A stretch of DNA of 36,940 nucleotides from Anaerostipes hominis (ex Lee et al. 2021) (GTDB lineage Bacteria > Bacillota > Clostridia > Lachnospirales > Lachnospiraceae): the NCBI RefSeq assembly GCF_002270485.1, contig NZ_NQOG01000024.1, positions 1 through 36,940 of the forward strand. Reading direction: 5' to 3'. The notes beneath the pieces are model-generated. The model did not search any database. It was not told the DNA's origin and saw only the letters and a list, made by a program, of their open reading frames with translations. This document shows, in pieces, positions 4,306-36,594 of this stretch; position 1 is the stretch's first letter; every line of letters begins with the position of its first letter. A program made the position numbers and the translations under genes.

Positions 4306-5361
4306 TCACATATTCAGTTTCATGTCCCCCTGTTTTATGATGCCCATCCGGCGCATACCTTCTGATATAAAATAGGTCAGCAATGCCGGGGCAATGATAT
4401 GCATTCCAATAATCATGACTGCGGTCGCAGCCGGAGAACCCCCGCCGGCCACCATAGTCTTATATCCCATGATCTGCCCCACTAATCCGGCTGTCCCCAT
4501 TCCGGAACCGATGGCATTATTGGTCATCTTGAATACTATAGTAGAAACAGGTCCCAACACGGCACTGGTAAGGATCGGCGGAATCCAGATCAGCGGTTTT
4601 CTGACGATGTTTGGAACCTGAAGCATAGATGTGCCGATTCCCTGGGCGATCAAGCCTCCTATTCTGTTCTCTCTGAAACTCGCCACAGCAAATCCTATCA
4701 TCTGAGCGCTGCATCCAACTGCAGCAGCTCCTGCGGCAATCCCTGAGAGATTTAATATCACTCCGAGCGCGGCCGAACTGATCGGCAGAGTGAGTGCCAT
4801 CCCCATCAGAACTGATACTACAATTCCCATCAAAAACGGCTGCTGCTCCGTACCCCACCGGATAAGGTCACCCAGCCGTGCCATCAGCTGACTGATCCAT
4901 GGACCGAGAAACAGACCTACGGCACCTCCGGATAAAATGGTCATAAGCGGTGTAAGCAGGATATCCAGCTGTGTCCTTCCTGAGATCAGGCGTCCCAGTT
5001 CAATTCCTACATACGCAGCCAAGAAAGCCCCCAGAGGTTCCCCGGGTCCGGATAGGACGACAGCCCCTTTGACAATCAGGGTTCCCGCCATGATTTTTGA
5101 TGCGTAAGCTCCGATCATTCCTGCACATGCCGATGAAACGGTTACCAGAACCGATTCCTGAAAACGTGAGGCAACTCCCACACCAATCCCGGCCCCGGTC
5201 ATCACTTTCGCCGCTGCCGCACCAACCGCCAGGACTTGTCCGATATTTCCGCCTATCAGCAGTCCAACTTGTTCCAGAATCGTCCCGATGATCAGGGTAG
5301 CAAACAACCCCTGTGCCATCCCGGACAATCCGTCAATAAAGAACCTTTTTAAAATCTTCAT
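4306..5361 (-). CDS. PTS EIIC-like membrane protein (PTS_EIIC_2 type)
   Basis: The 351-residue protein is Gly/Ala-rich with about nine membrane segments and begins 'MKILKRFFIDGLSGMAQGLF'. It resembles the PTS_EIIC_2 family of Firmicutes, which occurs as a lone EIIC-like permease without IIA or IIB partners. No PTS partner gene is nearby (the PTS operon at 32-34 kb is a different, galactitol-type system), so the substrate and even a transport role are unknown. GAGGAGAAG precedes the ATG. Its own sigma-A promoter lies at 5395-5423, back to back with the promoter of the next gene. Confidence 0.72.
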   Translation of the reverse strand: MKILKRFFIDGLSGMAQGLFATLIIGTILEQVGLLIGGNIGQVLAVGAAAAKVMTGAGIGVGVASRFQESVLVTVSSACAGMIGAYASKIMAGTLIVKGAVVLSGPGEPLGAFLAAYVGIELGRLISGRTQLDILLTPLMTILSGGAVGLFLGPWISQLMARLGDLIRWGTEQQPFLMGIVVSVLMGMALTLPISSAALGVILNLSGIAAGAAAVGCSAQMIGFAVASFRENRIGGLIAQGIGTSMLQVPNIVRKPLIWIPPILTSAVLGPVSTIVFKMTNNAIGSGMGTAGLVGQIMGYKTMVAGGGSPAATAVMIIGMHIIAPALLTYFISEGMRRMGIIKQGDMKLNM

Positions 5362-25007: not shown

Positions 25008-25016
25008 TGATATAAT
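25008..25016 (+). promoter_or_regulatory. Extended -10 promoter of the leader/CD3324-type gene
   Basis: TGATATAAT is a perfect extended -10 (TGnTATAAT). No good -35 is visible at 16-18 bp, as is common for extended -10 promoters. The expected start is near 25023, so the transcript begins just before the leader ribosome site. Confidence 0.7.
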
Positions 25017-25046
25017 AACTAGTAATAAAAGAGGAGGTAAATTCAT

Positions 25047-25076
25047 ATGCTTGATCCCATTGTTTTTGCTGCATAG
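25047..25076 (+). CDS. 9-residue leader peptide MLDPIVFAA
   Basis: An ATG 8 nt after the strong site GAGGAGGT (25031-25038) opens a 9-codon ORF (MLDPIVFAA) ending at TAG (25074-25076). It is the first thing translated on this transcript, 109 bp before the CD3324-type gene, and its stop codon touches the 5' arm of a long stem. Such position, size and ribosome site are typical of leader peptides of ribosome-mediated attenuators. The inducing signal cannot be read from the sequence. Confidence 0.68.
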   Translation: MLDPIVFAA

Positions 25077-25152
25077 CAGGGAGCTATTTGCAGCCATGCT
25101 GAATAACAGCATGATTTATAACGTTAAAATCTCAACAAATAGCCCTTGCTGT
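25073..25152 (+). promoter_or_regulatory. Structured attenuator-like leader RNA
   Basis: GCAGGGAGCTATTTG (25076-25090) pairs with CAAATAGCCCTTGC (25136-25149), 14 pairs with one bulged A and one G-U, extendable by three pairs into the leader stop codon. Inside it CATGCTG (25095-25101) pairs perfectly with CAGCATG (25107-25113). A weaker CTGTTCT/AGAGCAG pair (25149-25155 with 25178-25184) could cover the ribosome site of the next gene. A T-rich run follows at 25161-25174. Confidence 0.68.
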
Positions 25153-25185
25153 TCTGAATTAATTTTTTTATTTTAGGAGAGCAGT

Positions 25186-25467
25186 ATGAGCTATAAGAAA
25201 GCGAAACATATACTTCCCCTTGAACTTCTTGAAGAAATCCAAAAATATGTAGAAGGGGAGAGCATTTATATACCAAGAAGATCGGACAGAAAAAAGCCCC
25301 GTGGGAGTTCTGTTGCATCTTTAAAGTATTTTCAAAAACGCAATGCACAAATATTCAGTGAGTATCTTGCGGGAGAGCGCCAGGATTTATTGTCTGAAAA
25401 ATATTTTCTGTCTCTGAAAAGCATCCAAAGAATCATCCGGCAGGAGAAAATGATACATAACATGTAA
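25186..25467 (+). CDS. CD3324-family small helix-turn-helix protein
   Basis: The 93-residue protein begins 'MSYKKAKHILPLELLEEIQKYVEGESIYIP', the recognisable start of the CD3324 family named from Clostridioides difficile. It is followed by a basic stretch and a helix-turn-helix-like end ('DLLSEKYFLSLKSIQRIIRQEK', about 66-87). It is probably a DNA- or RNA-binding regulator; its target is unknown. AGGAGAG precedes the ATG. It is preceded by a leader peptide ORF and a structured leader and followed at once by a terminator, so it forms a separate attenuated unit. Confidence 0.8.
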   Translation: MSYKKAKHILPLELLEEIQKYVEGESIYIPRRSDRKKPRGSSVASLKYFQKRNAQIFSEYLAGERQDLLSEKYFLSLKSIQRIIRQEKMIHNM

Positions 25468-25470
25468 AGG

Positions 25471-25513
25471 TGAGCCGATACGGATATGAAAACCGTATTG
25501 GCTCATCTTTTTT
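25471..25513 (+). terminator. Terminator of the CD3324-type gene
   Basis: TGAGCCGATACGG (25471-25483) pairs with CCGTATTGGCTCA (25493-25505), 13 pairs with one G-U and a 9-nt loop, followed by TCTTTTTTT. Confidence 0.92.
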
Positions 25514-25593
25514 TCATAAAAAAGGATGAGGTTTGTGCTGACGGAAATGAATGATAGAATTTTTTCAGAATAAAAAATTCAGGAGGTGACATT

Positions 25594-25641
25594 GTGAAGC
25601 GAATTTTAGAAAATCCGCCTTTTTTCTCTTTCCTATTCTAA
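25594..25641 (+). CDS. 15-residue leader peptide of the DUF1062 gene
   Basis: A GTG, 6 nt after a near-perfect AGGAGGT (25581-25587), opens a 15-codon ORF (MKRILENPPFFSFLF) ending at TAA (25639-25641), 21 nt before the DUF1062 start codon. The last codons are Pro-Pro-Phe-Phe-Ser-Phe-Leu-Phe. Its last five codons form the 5' arm of a hairpin covering the ribosome site of DUF1062. A perfect GAATTTTTT/AAAAAATTC hairpin (25557-25580) lies just upstream. Ribosome-site quality and the exact overlap with the hairpin argue that it is translated. Confidence 0.75.
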   Translation: MKRILENPPFFSFLF

Positions 25642-25657
25642 TTAGAACAGGAAGGAG
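25626..25657 (+). promoter_or_regulatory. Hairpin sequestering the DUF1062 ribosome site
   Basis: CTCTTTCCTATTCT (25626-25639) pairs with AGAACAGGAAGGAG (25644-25657): 13 of 14 positions pair (one G-U, one A-C mismatch) around an AATT loop. The 3' arm contains the whole Shine-Dalgarno GGAAGGAG of the DUF1062 gene. The leader stop TAA begins at the end of the 5' arm. A ribosome held near the end of the leader would open the stem and free the ribosome site. Confidence 0.82.
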
Positions 25658-25662
25658 ATTTT

Positions 25663-26226
25663 ATGAAAAATAAATTTCTCAGAACGGTTGTCTGGGAGGT
25701 ACAGTACCAAACTCCGCCTCCTGCCGTGCGTTACTGTAAAAAATGCAGCAGTCAAAAAGAGTTTGTCAGTTCCGGACAGTTTAGGGTTAATGCACAGAGA
25801 AAATACCTGGACGTCTGGCTTATTTATAAATGTTCCGGCTGTGAAGCCACATGGAATCTGACTGTCTTATCCAGAATCCATCCAAAAGCAGTGAGCAGAG
25901 AACTTCTGGATAAATTCCACGGCAATGATCAAATACTTGCCCATAAATATGCTATGAATACAGATTTGTTGAAACGAAATGGCTGCAAAATCGGTCCATA
26001 TGATTACAAGATAACCGGATGTGCTGCATTTGACGGACCTGTTAGGCTGCATATCAGAAGTAATGATGCATCAGATGTAAAAGTATCGGCAATACTGCGT
26101 GAAAAACTGCAGTTATCCAGAAAAGAATTTGAAGACATGCTTTCAGACGGCAGAATACAAAGCGAGTCAGAAAATGATTTAACAAAGTGCAGGCTAGGGA
26201 AGGAGATCCTTTTAGTTATCTCATAA
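25663..26226 (+). CDS. DUF1062 zinc-ribbon protein, leader-controlled
   Basis: The 187-residue protein is of the DUF1062 family. A zinc ribbon is formed by 'YCKKCSS' (Cys25, Cys28) and 'YKCSGCEATW' (Cys57, Cys60). The C-terminus (about 138-187, 'VSAILREKLQLSRKEFEDML', 'KCRLGKEILLVI') resembles an S4-type RNA-binding fold, which is my inference. Zinc ribbon plus S4-like domain would suit a ribosome- or RNA-associated protein. The start ATG is 5 nt after GAAGGAG, all of which is buried in the leader hairpin. It is preceded by a leader peptide and followed by the separate promoter of the Rpn gene. A possible promoter TTGTGC-16-TAGAAT lies at 25533-25560. Confidence 0.83.
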   Translation: MKNKFLRTVVWEVQYQTPPPAVRYCKKCSSQKEFVSSGQFRVNAQRKYLDVWLIYKCSGCEATWNLTVLSRIHPKAVSRELLDKFHGNDQILAHKYAMNTDLLKRNGCKIGPYDYKITGCAAFDGPVRLHIRSNDASDVKVSAILREKLQLSRKEFEDMLSDGRIQSESENDLTKCRLGKEILLVIS

Positions 26227-26344: not shown

Positions 26345-27244
26345 ATGAAAAAGTCTAACAATATATCACTTAAAAATGACTATGCTTTCACACAGATCAT
26401 GAAGCAGCCTAAGATACTCCGGGGATTTTTAAGCAGTATCCTGCATATTCCTCCTGAAAAGATCGGGACCATTCATATAAAAGACCGCCACCTTTCCAAA
26501 GATCTTCTGGAAGGAAAGCTTTCCATACTTGATTTGTATACCGTAGTGGAAGGGACCGGAAAAATCAACATAGAGATGCAGGTACTGCCCTACGCACACT
26601 GGGACAGAAGATCTCTGTCTTATTTAGCAAAGGTATACACTCAGGATTTAAAATCAGGAGAAGCTTATGCCAATTGTGTTAAGGCCATTCATATCAGTAT
26701 TCTTGGTTTCAATCAGCTGACTGACACCGATTACTTTTACTCCTCTTTTCATATGAGAGAGGACAGCAGACACAGCCTATACAGCGATCAGTGGGAAGTT
26801 CATGTGATTGAGCTGCCAAAACTGAACTCTTCAAAAGTAAAAGAAGAGCATAAAAAGTTATATCAATGGGCATGTTTTATTTGCGCAGAGGGAGAGGAGG
26901 AACGTGCCATGATAGAAAAAGATCCTTATATTGAAGAAGCCATCAGAGAACTTGAATTGCTGGAACGCGATCCTGAACGTATGGACGAATATTTGTTCCG
27001 CCAAAAAAATCTTTCAGATTACGTCACCCAAATGGAGTACAGCAGAAAAGAAGGAGAATATACCAAAGTAATTGATCTGGTTCAAAAAAAGATGCAGCGA
27101 GGAAAAACTGAGGCAGAGATAGCCGATGCCTTAGAGGAAGATCCTCAGACTATCGCCTCCATTTGCCGTATGATCAGACTCTATCCTTCTTCCTCAAAGG
27201 AAGAAATTTATAAAGCATGGCAGAACAAACCCGGCACCGACTGA
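26345..27244 (+). CDS. Rpn-family PD-(D/E)XK nuclease / transposase-like protein
   Basis: The 299-residue protein begins 'SLKNDYAFTQIMKQPKILRGFLS', the typical Rpn/PDDEXK_2 start, and has the nuclease residues in 'LSILDLYTVVEGTGKINIEMQV' segments: Asp63, then Glu77-x-Gln79. The Rpn family (E. coli RpnA-E) are DNA endonucleases promoting RecA-independent recombination, often in variable copy number. The C-terminus (about 225-290) is helical with 'KMQRGKTEAEIADALEEDPQTIASICRMI', a possible helix-turn-helix. AAAGGAG precedes the ATG. It has its own promoter, and its downstream hairpin is shared with the convergent gene. Confidence 0.88.
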   Translation: MKKSNNISLKNDYAFTQIMKQPKILRGFLSSILHIPPEKIGTIHIKDRHLSKDLLEGKLSILDLYTVVEGTGKINIEMQVLPYAHWDRRSLSYLAKVYTQDLKSGEAYANCVKAIHISILGFNQLTDTDYFYSSFHMREDSRHSLYSDQWEVHVIELPKLNSSKVKEEHKKLYQWACFICAEGEEERAMIEKDPYIEEAIRELELLERDPERMDEYLFRQKNLSDYVTQMEYSRKEGEYTKVIDLVQKKMQRGKTEAEIADALEEDPQTIASICRMIRLYPSSSKEEIYKAWQNKPGTD

Positions 27245-34554: not shown

Positions 34555-36594
34555 TTATCTGCAGTATTCATCTTCCAGCCTCCGGATTGTCTCAAGCATG
34601 CCCTCCGGAGATTCCTGAGCCTCAATCCGGCTTTTTGTCTCTTCCTGGGAAAACAGACGCACCAGGTTATAAATAGCACAGTTAATGCTGTTGGAGTTTA
34701 AGATACTCAAGCCTACAATATAACTGACCGGATCATTTTCACTGTTCCCAAATATCACGGGTTCTTTAAGGCTCACCAGACTGGCTGCCTCTCTGACCGC
34801 CCCTTTTTCCTGCTCTGCGTGAGGGGCTGCGATGCCGGAATAAATCACCACATAGGAACCGTTTACCTTAATATTTTCGACCATAGCTTCTATATACTCA
34901 TAGGTGACGGCCCCGGATTCATAGAGAAGCCTGCCTGCTTCTCTGACCCCTTCCTCCCAGCTTTGCGCTTCCTGCTTCAGTGCGATCCTGTCTGCCGAGA
35001 GCATAGCTCCAAGAGAATTCCTCTCGGTCTTTTCTTCTATTTTGAGAAATTTTCCTGTCTCTGCCGTCTGGTCTCCGGACCAGTTCTCCCTTAACTTTGT
35101 TGCCTTTCTCCGAATTCTGTAAATATCTTCCTGTTCCAGCAGAGGACTGACCATGAGGATGTTTTGTATCTCCCCTTCGGGAAATGTGACTGTGGAGATC
35201 ACCAGCTGATCGTTTATGTTTCCCATATCTTTCAGTTCATGTGAGGATCTCACCTCCGTGATCTCAAGTACATCCTCCAGCTGTTTTAGTTTTGCGAGCA
35301 TGAGCTGGACGGTTCCCCTTCCCATCGCGCATACGAGGACTGCGGGCACTTTCTGTTCCCTCATCCGCTCCAGTTTGTCCCGCTCCAGCATAGATGCAAA
35401 ATACATGACGAGAAAGGAAACTTCATCTCTGGGAACTTTCACCCCAAGATAATCCTCCAATGGTTTCAGACATTCTTCCACCGTACAGAACACTTCGGGA
35501 TATCCCTTTTCGATTTCTCCCCGAAACGGATTTTCCAGGACCTCTCCCGAAGACATCCGATAGATAGAAGATTTCATATGATCCACCAGCAGATCGTAAA
35601 GTGCAAAATCCAGATAAAAATTAATCCGAAACCTGCTGATAATACGGTAAATGACCTCCCCGATCAGCACAGGGATCACCAGCTGTTCTACATTGTTCGT
35701 TCCGCTTTTCAGATAGCTTTTTCTTCTGAGGCAGAATACAAAATTTTCTGCTTCCGCTGCCGGTATATCCAGTGAAAATTCTTCTCCCAGCCGGTCCAGT
35801 ACAGTCCTGCTCAGCGGATATTTTGAGCTCTGGGATGCATTTCCCCAGTCCGGCTGTCTTTCCTTTTCTATTGTTTTTCCTTTTTTTACCCTTTCAACCA
35901 GGATCAGCAGTTCATAGACTGCCACCGAAAAAGAGAAGTCGGAAAGAAAGCAGTCATACCTCAATTCTTCTTCCCTTAAAACCTTTTGTATGGTTTCATA
36001 CCGTCCCTGATATTGAATTTCTTTCAGGAGAAGATGTCCGAACACGTGGAAAGCACCCATTGCACCATATTTTTCTTCATCCAGATTCAGCTCAAGGAGC
36101 TTCAGCATACCGGAACGTATGTCTCCTTCCGAAGCTTCTACAATATACCCTTTTTGTACCTGGGAAACAAGTTTCATATTATTTTTCAAAAACCAGTCCT
36201 TCAGATCATTCAGGTCACTGATCACTGTGTTTCTGCTCGTACTGATGTACTCTGAAATCCAGGCTGCCGTCACATACTTCTCATGATTCAAAAGAAGCAT
36301 AGCAAGTATTGTCTTTCGTTCATTTTTGGACAGGCGATATGTATAAAAATCATTTTTCGTAATAAACTTTTGGATCTGTTCCAAAAGTCCTTCTTCCCTG
36401 CCCTCAAACCTTAAAATTCCCTCTCCGTTTATACTTACCGGAGGCAGTCCGTTTTCATTTAATTCGTCATTCAGCTCTCTGATCTTTTTGCGCACAATCC
36501 GTTCAGAAATCTGATACTTTTCCGAAATTTCCGTCAGCTGCAGTCTGCCCCCTGCCAAAAGTTGATTTAATATTTGATTGCTTCTTTTGTCCAA
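34555..36594 (-). CDS. BglG/MtlR-type PTS-controlled transcription activator
   Basis: The 679-residue regulator has an HTH_11 domain (1-60, 'LQLTEISEKYQISERIVRKKIREL'), a second Mga-like HTH (95-150), two PRD domains (about 165-290 and 300-410), an EIIB-Gat-like domain with Cys422 in 'VLVCAMGRGTVQLML' and an EIIA domain with His592 in 'GIAAPHAEQ'. It should sense the phosphorylation state of the adjacent PTS and activate the operon. PRD2 keeps His339 ('VDHMKSSIYRM'), but Tyr398 stands where the second His ('xLHFAAxLER') is usual, and PRD1 has Glu at the corresponding first position. The start is a TTG, 7-8 nt after AAGAGGG; no ATG with a site is available. It has its own terminator. Confidence 0.88.
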   Translation of the reverse strand: MDKRSNQILNQLLAGGRLQLTEISEKYQISERIVRKKIRELNDELNENGLPPVSINGEGILRFEGREEGLLEQIQKFITKNDFYTYRLSKNERKTILAMLLLNHEKYVTAAWISEYISTSRNTVISDLNDLKDWFLKNNMKLVSQVQKGYIVEASEGDIRSGMLKLLELNLDEEKYGAMGAFHVFGHLLLKEIQYQGRYETIQKVLREEELRYDCFLSDFSFSVAVYELLILVERVKKGKTIEKERQPDWGNASQSSKYPLSRTVLDRLGEEFSLDIPAAEAENFVFCLRRKSYLKSGTNNVEQLVIPVLIGEVIYRIISRFRINFYLDFALYDLLVDHMKSSIYRMSSGEVLENPFRGEIEKGYPEVFCTVEECLKPLEDYLGVKVPRDEVSFLVMYFASMLERDKLERMREQKVPAVLVCAMGRGTVQLMLAKLKQLEDVLEITEVRSSHELKDMGNINDQLVISTVTFPEGEIQNILMVSPLLEQEDIYRIRRKATKLRENWSGDQTAETGKFLKIEEKTERNSLGAMLSADRIALKQEAQSWEEGVREAGRLLYESGAVTYEYIEAMVENIKVNGSYVVIYSGIAAPHAEQEKGAVREAASLVSLKEPVIFGNSENDPVSYIVGLSILNSNSINCAIYNLVRLFSQEETKSRIEAQESPEGMLETIRRLEDEYCR

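Follow-up and report, generated by a model that had tools for sequence, protein, structure and literature searches.

What does a short open reading frame do ahead of the gene for DUF1062, an uncharacterised zinc-ribbon protein, in Anaerostipes hominis? A preliminary description of this locus, made on the 36,940-nucleotide stretch of DNA analysed here (the window; contig NZ_NQOG01000024.1), proposed translational attenuation. Genes behind leader-peptide attenuators respond to stalled ribosomes, and many of the known attenuators sit before antibiotic-resistance genes. Translational attenuation is itself already known; DUF1062 as a target and a two-stage layout appear to be new, as far as the open full-text literature shows. 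We know of no relay with separate stall sensors on the activator and on its target, and a search of the open full-text literature found none. The same literature (subscription papers and preprints lie outside it) holds no attenuator of DUF1062, in line with the earlier statement that no described one was known; the protein appears there only in single lines of expression tables, also under the names COG4332, PF06353, STM4502 and IPR009412.

Here, we compare the locus with its relatives, model the effect of a halted ribosome on its folds, and conclude that it is probably a two-stage relay induced by stalled ribosomes. The gene and the elements directly before it are as follows.

25581..25588, + strand: Shine-Dalgarno (SD) sequence of leader A, AGGAGGTG, read in the sequence.
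25594..25641, + strand: leader A, 15 codons, VKRILENPPFFSFLF and stop.
25615..25620, + strand: Pro8-Pro9 codons of leader A, CCG CCT, the predicted stall site.
25625..25658, + strand: hairpin A, 14 pairs, predicted by folding and shuffles to hide the DUF1062 ribosome-binding site.
25650..25657, + strand: SD region of DUF1062, GGAAGGAG, wholly within the 3' arm of hairpin A, accessibility 0.0.
25663..26226, + strand: DUF1062 gene (PF06353), 187 aa, with an N-terminal zinc ribbon and a C-terminal S4-like RNA-binding region.

Leader A runs from a GTG at 25594 to a TAA at 25639-25641 and is, as the preliminary description stated, a 15-codon frame with a good SD whose stop codon lies at the hairpin loop, 21 nt from the DUF1062 ATG (25663). 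The hairpin described there is also present and does hold the whole DUF1062 SD in its 3' arm, with one correction: it has 14 pairs instead of 13. A run of 10 pairs and one of 4 are separated by a 1x1 A-C mismatch, and the arms lie at 25625-25639 and 25644-25658. Folding 25557-25700 (144 nt), the check suggested at the time, gave z = -3.75 against dinucleotide shuffles, with 1 of 200 shuffles as good. The leader's own SD, AGGAGGTG, is predicted to pair with its Pro codons, CGCCTTTT, in a second hairpin (25581-25622), and similar pairing is seen in group A3 of the related leaders; it might dampen leader A translation, or simply follow from the likeness of CCNCC codons to an anti-SD.

To place leader A among its relatives we collected DUF1062 loci, 33 from named genome contigs and the rest from further genomes of the family, the class and two other orders. 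Among those further genomes DUF1062 was found in 53 of 397 for the family (50 fetched; G231, G302 and G191 left out), 16 of 391 for the class, and 17 of 148 and 4 of 67 for the two orders, counts that take in weak S4-only matches and repeats of the same genomes. Start codons were set by script in 111 of 113 loci; L037 and L092, which have no start, stand outside all counts. For leader A we kept 98 of the 111, excluding nine short-form genes and four duplicates (L001, L006, L041, L093).

In 25 of these 98 loci DUF1062 is preceded by a short ORF that has an SD of its own and Pro-Pro within codons 6-17, against 0.65 expected from dinucleotide shuffles of the same 130 nt. Such type A leaders, the window's included, read MKKLFENPPFSFSYSN, MKKVCDNPPVIFPIN, MKRICDNPPY (with a stop at once), MKKCCDNPPFSF, MKRNCEIPPHSLMN, MKKMLDYIPPFHDFLF and MKRFLGHSPPFSAFL... 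Codon 2 is Lys or Arg in all 25 and codon 3 in 24; Pro-Pro starts at codon 8 (n = 14), 9 (n = 10) or 15 (n = 1), is in frame in every case and is written with four different codon pairs. It is followed by F in 17 leaders, Y in three, V and H in two each and D in one, and the tail beyond is free. The stalling tail first proposed, Pro-Pro-Phe-Phe-Ser-Phe-Leu-Phe, is thus kept in its Pro-Pro and not conserved in its Phe-Ser-Phe-Leu-Phe end. In the closest relative (L003, protein 98% identical) a 2-nt length difference directly after Pro-Pro-Phe-Phe alters the tail, and Pro-Pro and stem are kept despite this. Within the sampled genus the DUF1062 gene occurs in 3 of 11 genomes, all three with a leader containing in-frame ENPPF.

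In a maximum-likelihood tree of 96 DUF1062 rows (15 of the 111 left out as duplicates, fragments or short forms, or as L076), all 25 type A leaders belong to a single clade of 37 rows (support 100/99), and the remaining 12 rows of the clade lack a type A leader. The homologue comparison proposed with the first description finds both the short ORF and the stem conserved: the leader stands in 25 of 37 clade rows, each time ahead of a stem in which the DUF1062 SD region takes part. In the same clade, L010 has before position 5001 a leader, MKNKFFTQQICAFTQI and stop, with a good SD, no Pro-Pro and no clear masking stem. As a general regulon signal the NPP leader was rejected: the pattern RTGAARMRNNNNNNNGANAAYCCNCC gave seven matches in 299 family genomes and four with a reversed control, so there is no sign of other targets; four of the seven lie before DUF1062 and three elsewhere, one of those three with an in-frame stop.

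The stem itself varies in sequence and placement. In most type A groups it starts 6 to 14 nt past the first base of the Pro-Pro codons, and in two groups, L049/L051/L052 and L073/L074, it is the Pro codons that pair with the SD region. The expected compensatory changes were found in four Oscillospiraceae sequences, where double changes affect 4 of 13 stem pairs (3 of 500 shuffles as high); they were not found on two other type A alignments: RNAalifold on a MAFFT alignment of nine type A sequences (A2) gave no clean common hairpin, and the seven sequences of group A3 show no covariation because their stem is invariant. In the four Oscillospiraceae the leader extends beyond the start of DUF1062 in a different frame, and a ribosome translating it freely would therefore pass over the start site.

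Masking of the SD was measured by shuffling the leader region. It is significant singly (<=0.05) in only 6 of 25 type A loci, and four of the 25 (L121, L123, L124, L127) are less masked than their shuffle mean; over eight hand-chosen representatives from seven groups the combined p is 9e-5. As a background we took 140 genes from 400 kb of the window's genome, each with a free stretch before it. An SD-led short ORF (SD match at least 5) precedes 18 of them and a masked SD (accessibility <0.15) six, the two together occur in none of the 140, and neither does a leader with PP[FYH]. By comparison, 26 of 94 DUF1062 loci have an SD accessibility below 0.15 (Fisher 4e-7, a value that ignores kinship). 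The SD is also masked (accessibility <=0.03) at L005, L042, L022, L030, L032 and L036, which carry neither a type A leader nor a leader of the second type described below.

We then modelled a ribosome on the leaders by blocking its footprint, which spans -14 to +15 around the P-site codon, and computing the energy needed to open the initiation region; shuffle controls covered 25 of 25 type A loci and 15 of 33 loci of the second type, with 12 shuffles per type A locus and 60 for leader A of the window. Averaged over the 25 type A loci, opening costs 10.4 kcal/mol on free RNA, 9.9 when a ribosome sits on codons 2-5, 5.5 when it is on the first Pro and 4.2 on the second. A ribosome at the second Pro eases opening by at least 1 kcal/mol in 23 of 25 loci, with a mean drop of 6.2 kcal/mol against 1.4 when the leader is shuffled. 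At most one in ten shuffles reaches the drop in 21 of 25 loci, and more do so in L049, L052, L126 and L136; for the window's leader A the drop is 10.8, reached by none of 60 shuffles. A drop at the Pro codons that beats shuffles suggests, within the limits of the model, that Pro-Pro is positioned where a halted ribosome would open the site. Together with the conservation of leader and stem, this opening in silico supports the erm/cat-type geometry originally claimed.

The preliminary description covered half of the system. A second attenuator lies at 25029-25188, about 0.6 kb upstream of leader A, in front of a helix-turn-helix gene.

25011..25016, + strand: TATAAT, position read from the sequence, probably the -10 element of a transcript carrying attenuator B and the Mor-like gene.
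25029..25188, + strand: attenuator B (model R1, 35.1 bits, E 9.3e-4).
25030..25038, + strand: SD sequence of leader B, AGAGGAGGT, read in the sequence.
25047..25076, + strand: leader B, 9 codons, MLDPIVFAA and stop, proline at codon 4; similar leaders precede relatives' Mor-like genes.
25186..25467, + strand: Mor-like (CD3324 family) helix-turn-helix gene, a likely activator (PF08765 E 4.4e-6; NF040785 E 6.1e-29).
25470..25515, + strand: probable intrinsic terminator of the Mor-like gene, a stem-loop and T run read from the sequence.
25529..25560, + strand: probable DUF1062 promoter, an AGGT box, 22 nt and TAGAAT (26-nt spacing).

In attenuator B the leader end (25067-25072) pairs with the Mor-like start region (25181-25186), and 25073-25090 pair with 25136-25152; the fold has z = -2.77. 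Leader B bears a likeness to the macrolide-arrest motifs of ErmCL and ErmAL1, but the letters of these motifs did not turn up in the papers searched, and we do not use the likeness as evidence. The same type B design precedes DUF1062 directly in 33 loci of a second clade. Thirty of these leaders are 8 codons long and the others 9; they read MTTPVYFA and stop or variants of it (28 different strings among the 33), and their last codons can pair with the gene start region around an inner helix. By script, 39 of the 96 tree rows have neither leader type; R1 afterwards matched one of them, L078.

R1 is a covariance model built from 26 type B sequences upstream of DUF1062 genes. In this training alignment double changes occur in 4 of 17 pairs, which 151 of 500 shuffles reach, and the covariation score lies above all 500. 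Attenuator B is its only match at E<=0.1 in the window's genome (58 of 2342 first-look candidates scored); a weak match on the minus strand of the window at 36271-36381 (19.8 bits, E 0.28) is most likely chance. In 60 family genomes R1 gave 24 matches at E<=0.1, of which 19 lie before Mor-like (14) or DUF1062 (5) genes and the other five do not. All 16 matches at E<=3.6e-4 precede one of these two gene families, four of them having been used to build the model; the training set contained four of the five DUF1062 matches and none of the 14 before Mor-like genes. Among 26 Mor-upstream elements outside the training set, double changes occur in 13 of 17 pairs and are sharply lost when the partner is slid, on an alignment that was fitted to R1, leans towards the model and includes some close relatives. 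These elements come from 28 sources, of which L007 and L094 gave no match at E<=0.01.

Modelled ribosomes also ease opening at attenuator B. The window's element costs 11.64 kcal/mol to open when free, 5.57 when codon 4 (Pro) is in the P site, 6.5 for codon 5 and again 11 to 12 for codons 6-9; none of 40 shuffles gives as large a drop at codon 4. The 33 type B sites before DUF1062 likewise have their lowest cost at codon 4 (5.2 vs 8.9 free), and 13 Mor-upstream elements of relatives show a weaker effect (7.2 at codon 4 vs 9.0 free, easier by at least 1 kcal/mol in seven of the 13). The type B effect is confined to the initiation region as a whole: the accessibility of the SD alone does not rise under the modelled ribosome (0.39 on free RNA, 0.37-0.43 when it is present). 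Of the 15 type B loci given a shuffle control, five fail to beat it at 0.1.

In 62 of 111 loci a Mor-like gene precedes DUF1062 and reads in the same direction, among them 21 of the 25 type A and 14 of the 33 type B loci; in three loci it lies downstream. These numbers hold within the flanks fetched and include a few duplicates. In the window the probable DUF1062 promoter lies between the two genes. Its spacing of exactly 26 nt from AGGT box to -10 hexamer (start to start) recurs in 45 of 101 loci, and each of the other 25 spacings tried occurs in 0 to 7. The Mor protein of phage Mu replaces the -35 region, and by analogy the Mor-like protein is likely the activator of the DUF1062 AGGT promoter. 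Elsewhere in the genus the promoter pattern is about as frequent as a control: 11 genomes gave nine matches, two of them DUF1062 promoters, and eight control matches.

Related arrangements occur at other loci. At L152, L164 and L168 a type B attenuator stands before Mor-like genes that are followed by genes for RNHCP (PF12647) zinc proteins, which the open full-text literature mentions only in chemistry papers; L164 has a further short ORF, MKNNYNKESAR and stop, before the RNHCP gene. Another attenuated Mor-like gene is followed by a hydrolase gene, and the AGGT promoter recurs there. L077 and L079-L086 encode short DUF1062 forms (about 100 aa) consisting of the zinc-ribbon half without the S4 part; they follow or overlap the end of a Mor-like gene, which in L080 and L166 has a type B match. 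In the window, a PD-(D/E)XK (PDDEXK_2) transposase-like gene directly follows DUF1062 (26345-27244).

The window's DUF1062 protein matches PF06353 with E 7.6e-39 (134 bits, cut-off 23), the sole match in its genome. Its zinc ribbon is a CxxC...CxxC arrangement around an invariant DVWLIYKC. At E<=1 six of 29 family members match the Pfam S4 profile, the best with E 1.1e-5, and the window protein itself does not; in a profile search against solved structures the best hit was an RNA polymerase zinc ribbon (E 0.007), with ribosomal protein S4 at E 0.44. From these matches we infer that DUF1062 may bind RNA or the ribosome. In collections of mobile DNA, none of nine candidates from viral contigs is a relative, phages gave three Salmonella records only, and 57 plasmid records are all below 60% identity. 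PADLOC matched neither DUF1062 nor the Mor-like protein, NCBIfam gave no DUF1062 match at E<=0.1, and Rfam 15 gave none above gathering score in the window and 14 loci. The attenuator elements are spread across Lachnospiraceae and other Clostridia.

Leader conservation, folds, covariation and promoter spacing come from the comparison of loci; for stalling, the activator role and the signal we infer the following course. In unstressed cells the ribosome-binding sites of the Mor-like and DUF1062 genes would be hidden by folds that involve the ends of the leader coding sequences. A ribosome stalled early in leader B (codons 4-5) would allow the Mor-like protein to be made, which would switch on the AGGT promoter of DUF1062, and a second stall at the Pro-Pro of leader A would open the DUF1062 site. 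The protein, with its zinc ribbon and S4-like region, might then act on stalled or drug-bound ribosomes. The most likely signal would be a ribosome inhibited by drugs of the peptidyl-transferase or exit-tunnel kind. We give ribosome-targeting drugs an even chance of being the signal, by analogy, and favour them because of the leader format, the three-codon leaders of Bacilli and a Salmonella DUF1062 gene beside a topAI homologue, both described below. The remaining probability is shared equally by proline-specific stress and other causes.

A different signal could act through the same leaders. Pro-Pro is a known stall element (excerpt of PMC13410324), and the leaders may sense slow translation specific to proline, arising from prolyl-tRNA shortage or EF-P insufficiency, with Pro-Pro (A) and Pro4 (B) as sensors. 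Pro-Pro is present in all 25 type A leaders, a set selected for Pro-Pro; proline occupies codon 4 of the window's leader B and of 24 of the 33 type B leaders that precede DUF1062, and opening is easiest with the modelled ribosome on the Pro codons; yet 7 of these 33 type B leaders, 13 of 27 leaders before Mor-like genes and the Bacilli three-codon leaders contain no proline at all. We regard a proline-specific signal as possible and rather doubtful.

The S4-like RNA-binding region raises the thought that the stems are autoregulation operators, bound by the protein on its own leader, and that the short ORFs are incidental. Yet it is the in-frame Pro-Pro, the SDs and the start codons that are kept as stem sequences and loops vary between groups; different clades place different stems before DUF1062, and type B elements also precede Mor-like genes, all of which makes autoregulation unlikely. 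Still less probable is transcription attenuation with the hairpin before DUF1062 as a terminator, a reading that we examined and rejected. A four-T run between stem and start codon occurs in the window, L003, L128 and L129, but by eye no such run is present in the remaining 21 of the 25 type A sequences (the T run after the stem is never longer than four), and the ribosome-binding site forms the 3' arm. A chance origin, with random short ORFs and unremarkable folding of A+T-rich leaders, gains some credit from shuffles that also mask the SD because pyrimidine-rich leaders pair easily with SDs; it is hardly credible against 25 type A leaders where 0.65 are expected, 16 strongest type B matches that all lie before two gene families, and the covariation. 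The stall-induced relay remains our preferred reading.

Under the relay, the stall-controlled leaders at the DUF1062 locus suggest that translation stress or antibiotics set off a response not recognised so far. Attenuators of several unrelated designs stand before DUF1062, which indicates a job in translation stress, and this role becomes directly testable. More broadly, DUF1062 and the RNHCP zinc proteins beside attenuated Mor-like genes could be effectors of a widespread, unrecognised ribosome-antibiotic response, acting as new ribosome-protection or rescue factors and reached through an attenuated activator and three or more unrelated leader designs (leaders with Pro-Pro, leaders of 8-9 codons with a four-part fold, and three-codon MIR leaders); we put this somewhat short of an even chance.

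How closely does the locus resemble known attenuators? In the erm-type scheme, as an excerpt of PMC5118997 describes it, a short SD-led leader has alternative pairings at its end and the ribosome-binding site of the main gene is masked. The macrolide-resistance attenuators of ermC and ermB share these three features with the window. Leaders A and B each have their own good SD and a main site predicted to be sequestered with leader codons taking part; in silico, a ribosome halted at a conserved codon opens the site, except by the SD-only measure for type B; and leader and stem are conserved with compensatory changes, though not on alignments A2 and A3 alone. The difference lies in the main gene, which is a methyltransferase in ermC and ermB and here an uncharacterised zinc-ribbon/S4-like protein or a likely activator, and in the use of Pro-Pro by leader A.

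A third design has leaders of three codons. In L014-L018, five close Bacilli relatives considered without a chance control (three other Bacilli loci lie outside this look), a three-codon leader, MIR or MIK and stop, stands about 55 nt before the DUF1062 start behind the SD GGGGTGAG, and a following stem, CACTTTCAC/GGTGAAAGTG, hides the DUF1062 SD. The antibiotic-resistance ABC-F genes cplR and vmlR have leaders MR[I/M] and MIN, and cplR has an anti-SD element (excerpt of PMC10201436); both leaders sense lincomycin and retapamulin (excerpt of PMC12121999). They share the three-codon format, there as in the Bacilli DUF1062 genes, where it stands before an SD-masking stem. They differ in that leaders A and B of the window are longer, and in that cplR transcripts stop early at the start codon without inducer, according to the excerpted text of PMC10201436, whereas no terminator was seen here.

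The toiL uORF, which controls topAI in E. coli, senses several classes of ribosome drug and, through its own sequence, masks the ribosome-binding site of the gene that follows (excerpt of PMC12121999). The masking is as in the window; toiL-topAI differs in being a toxin-antitoxin operon with one uORF and Rho-dependent termination. In one Salmonella record (L170, 3272-4618), DUF1062 (STM4502) and a YjhX/TopAI toxin gene lie side by side and are read in divergent directions, next to yjhP. WhiB7 is a transcription activator. Its leader in actinobacteria carries a uORF before the regulator gene that responds to several drug classes, as part of PMC12121999 reports. Leader B likewise lies upstream of a regulator gene, and here, unlike at whiB7, the regulator adjoins a likely target that carries an attenuator of its own.
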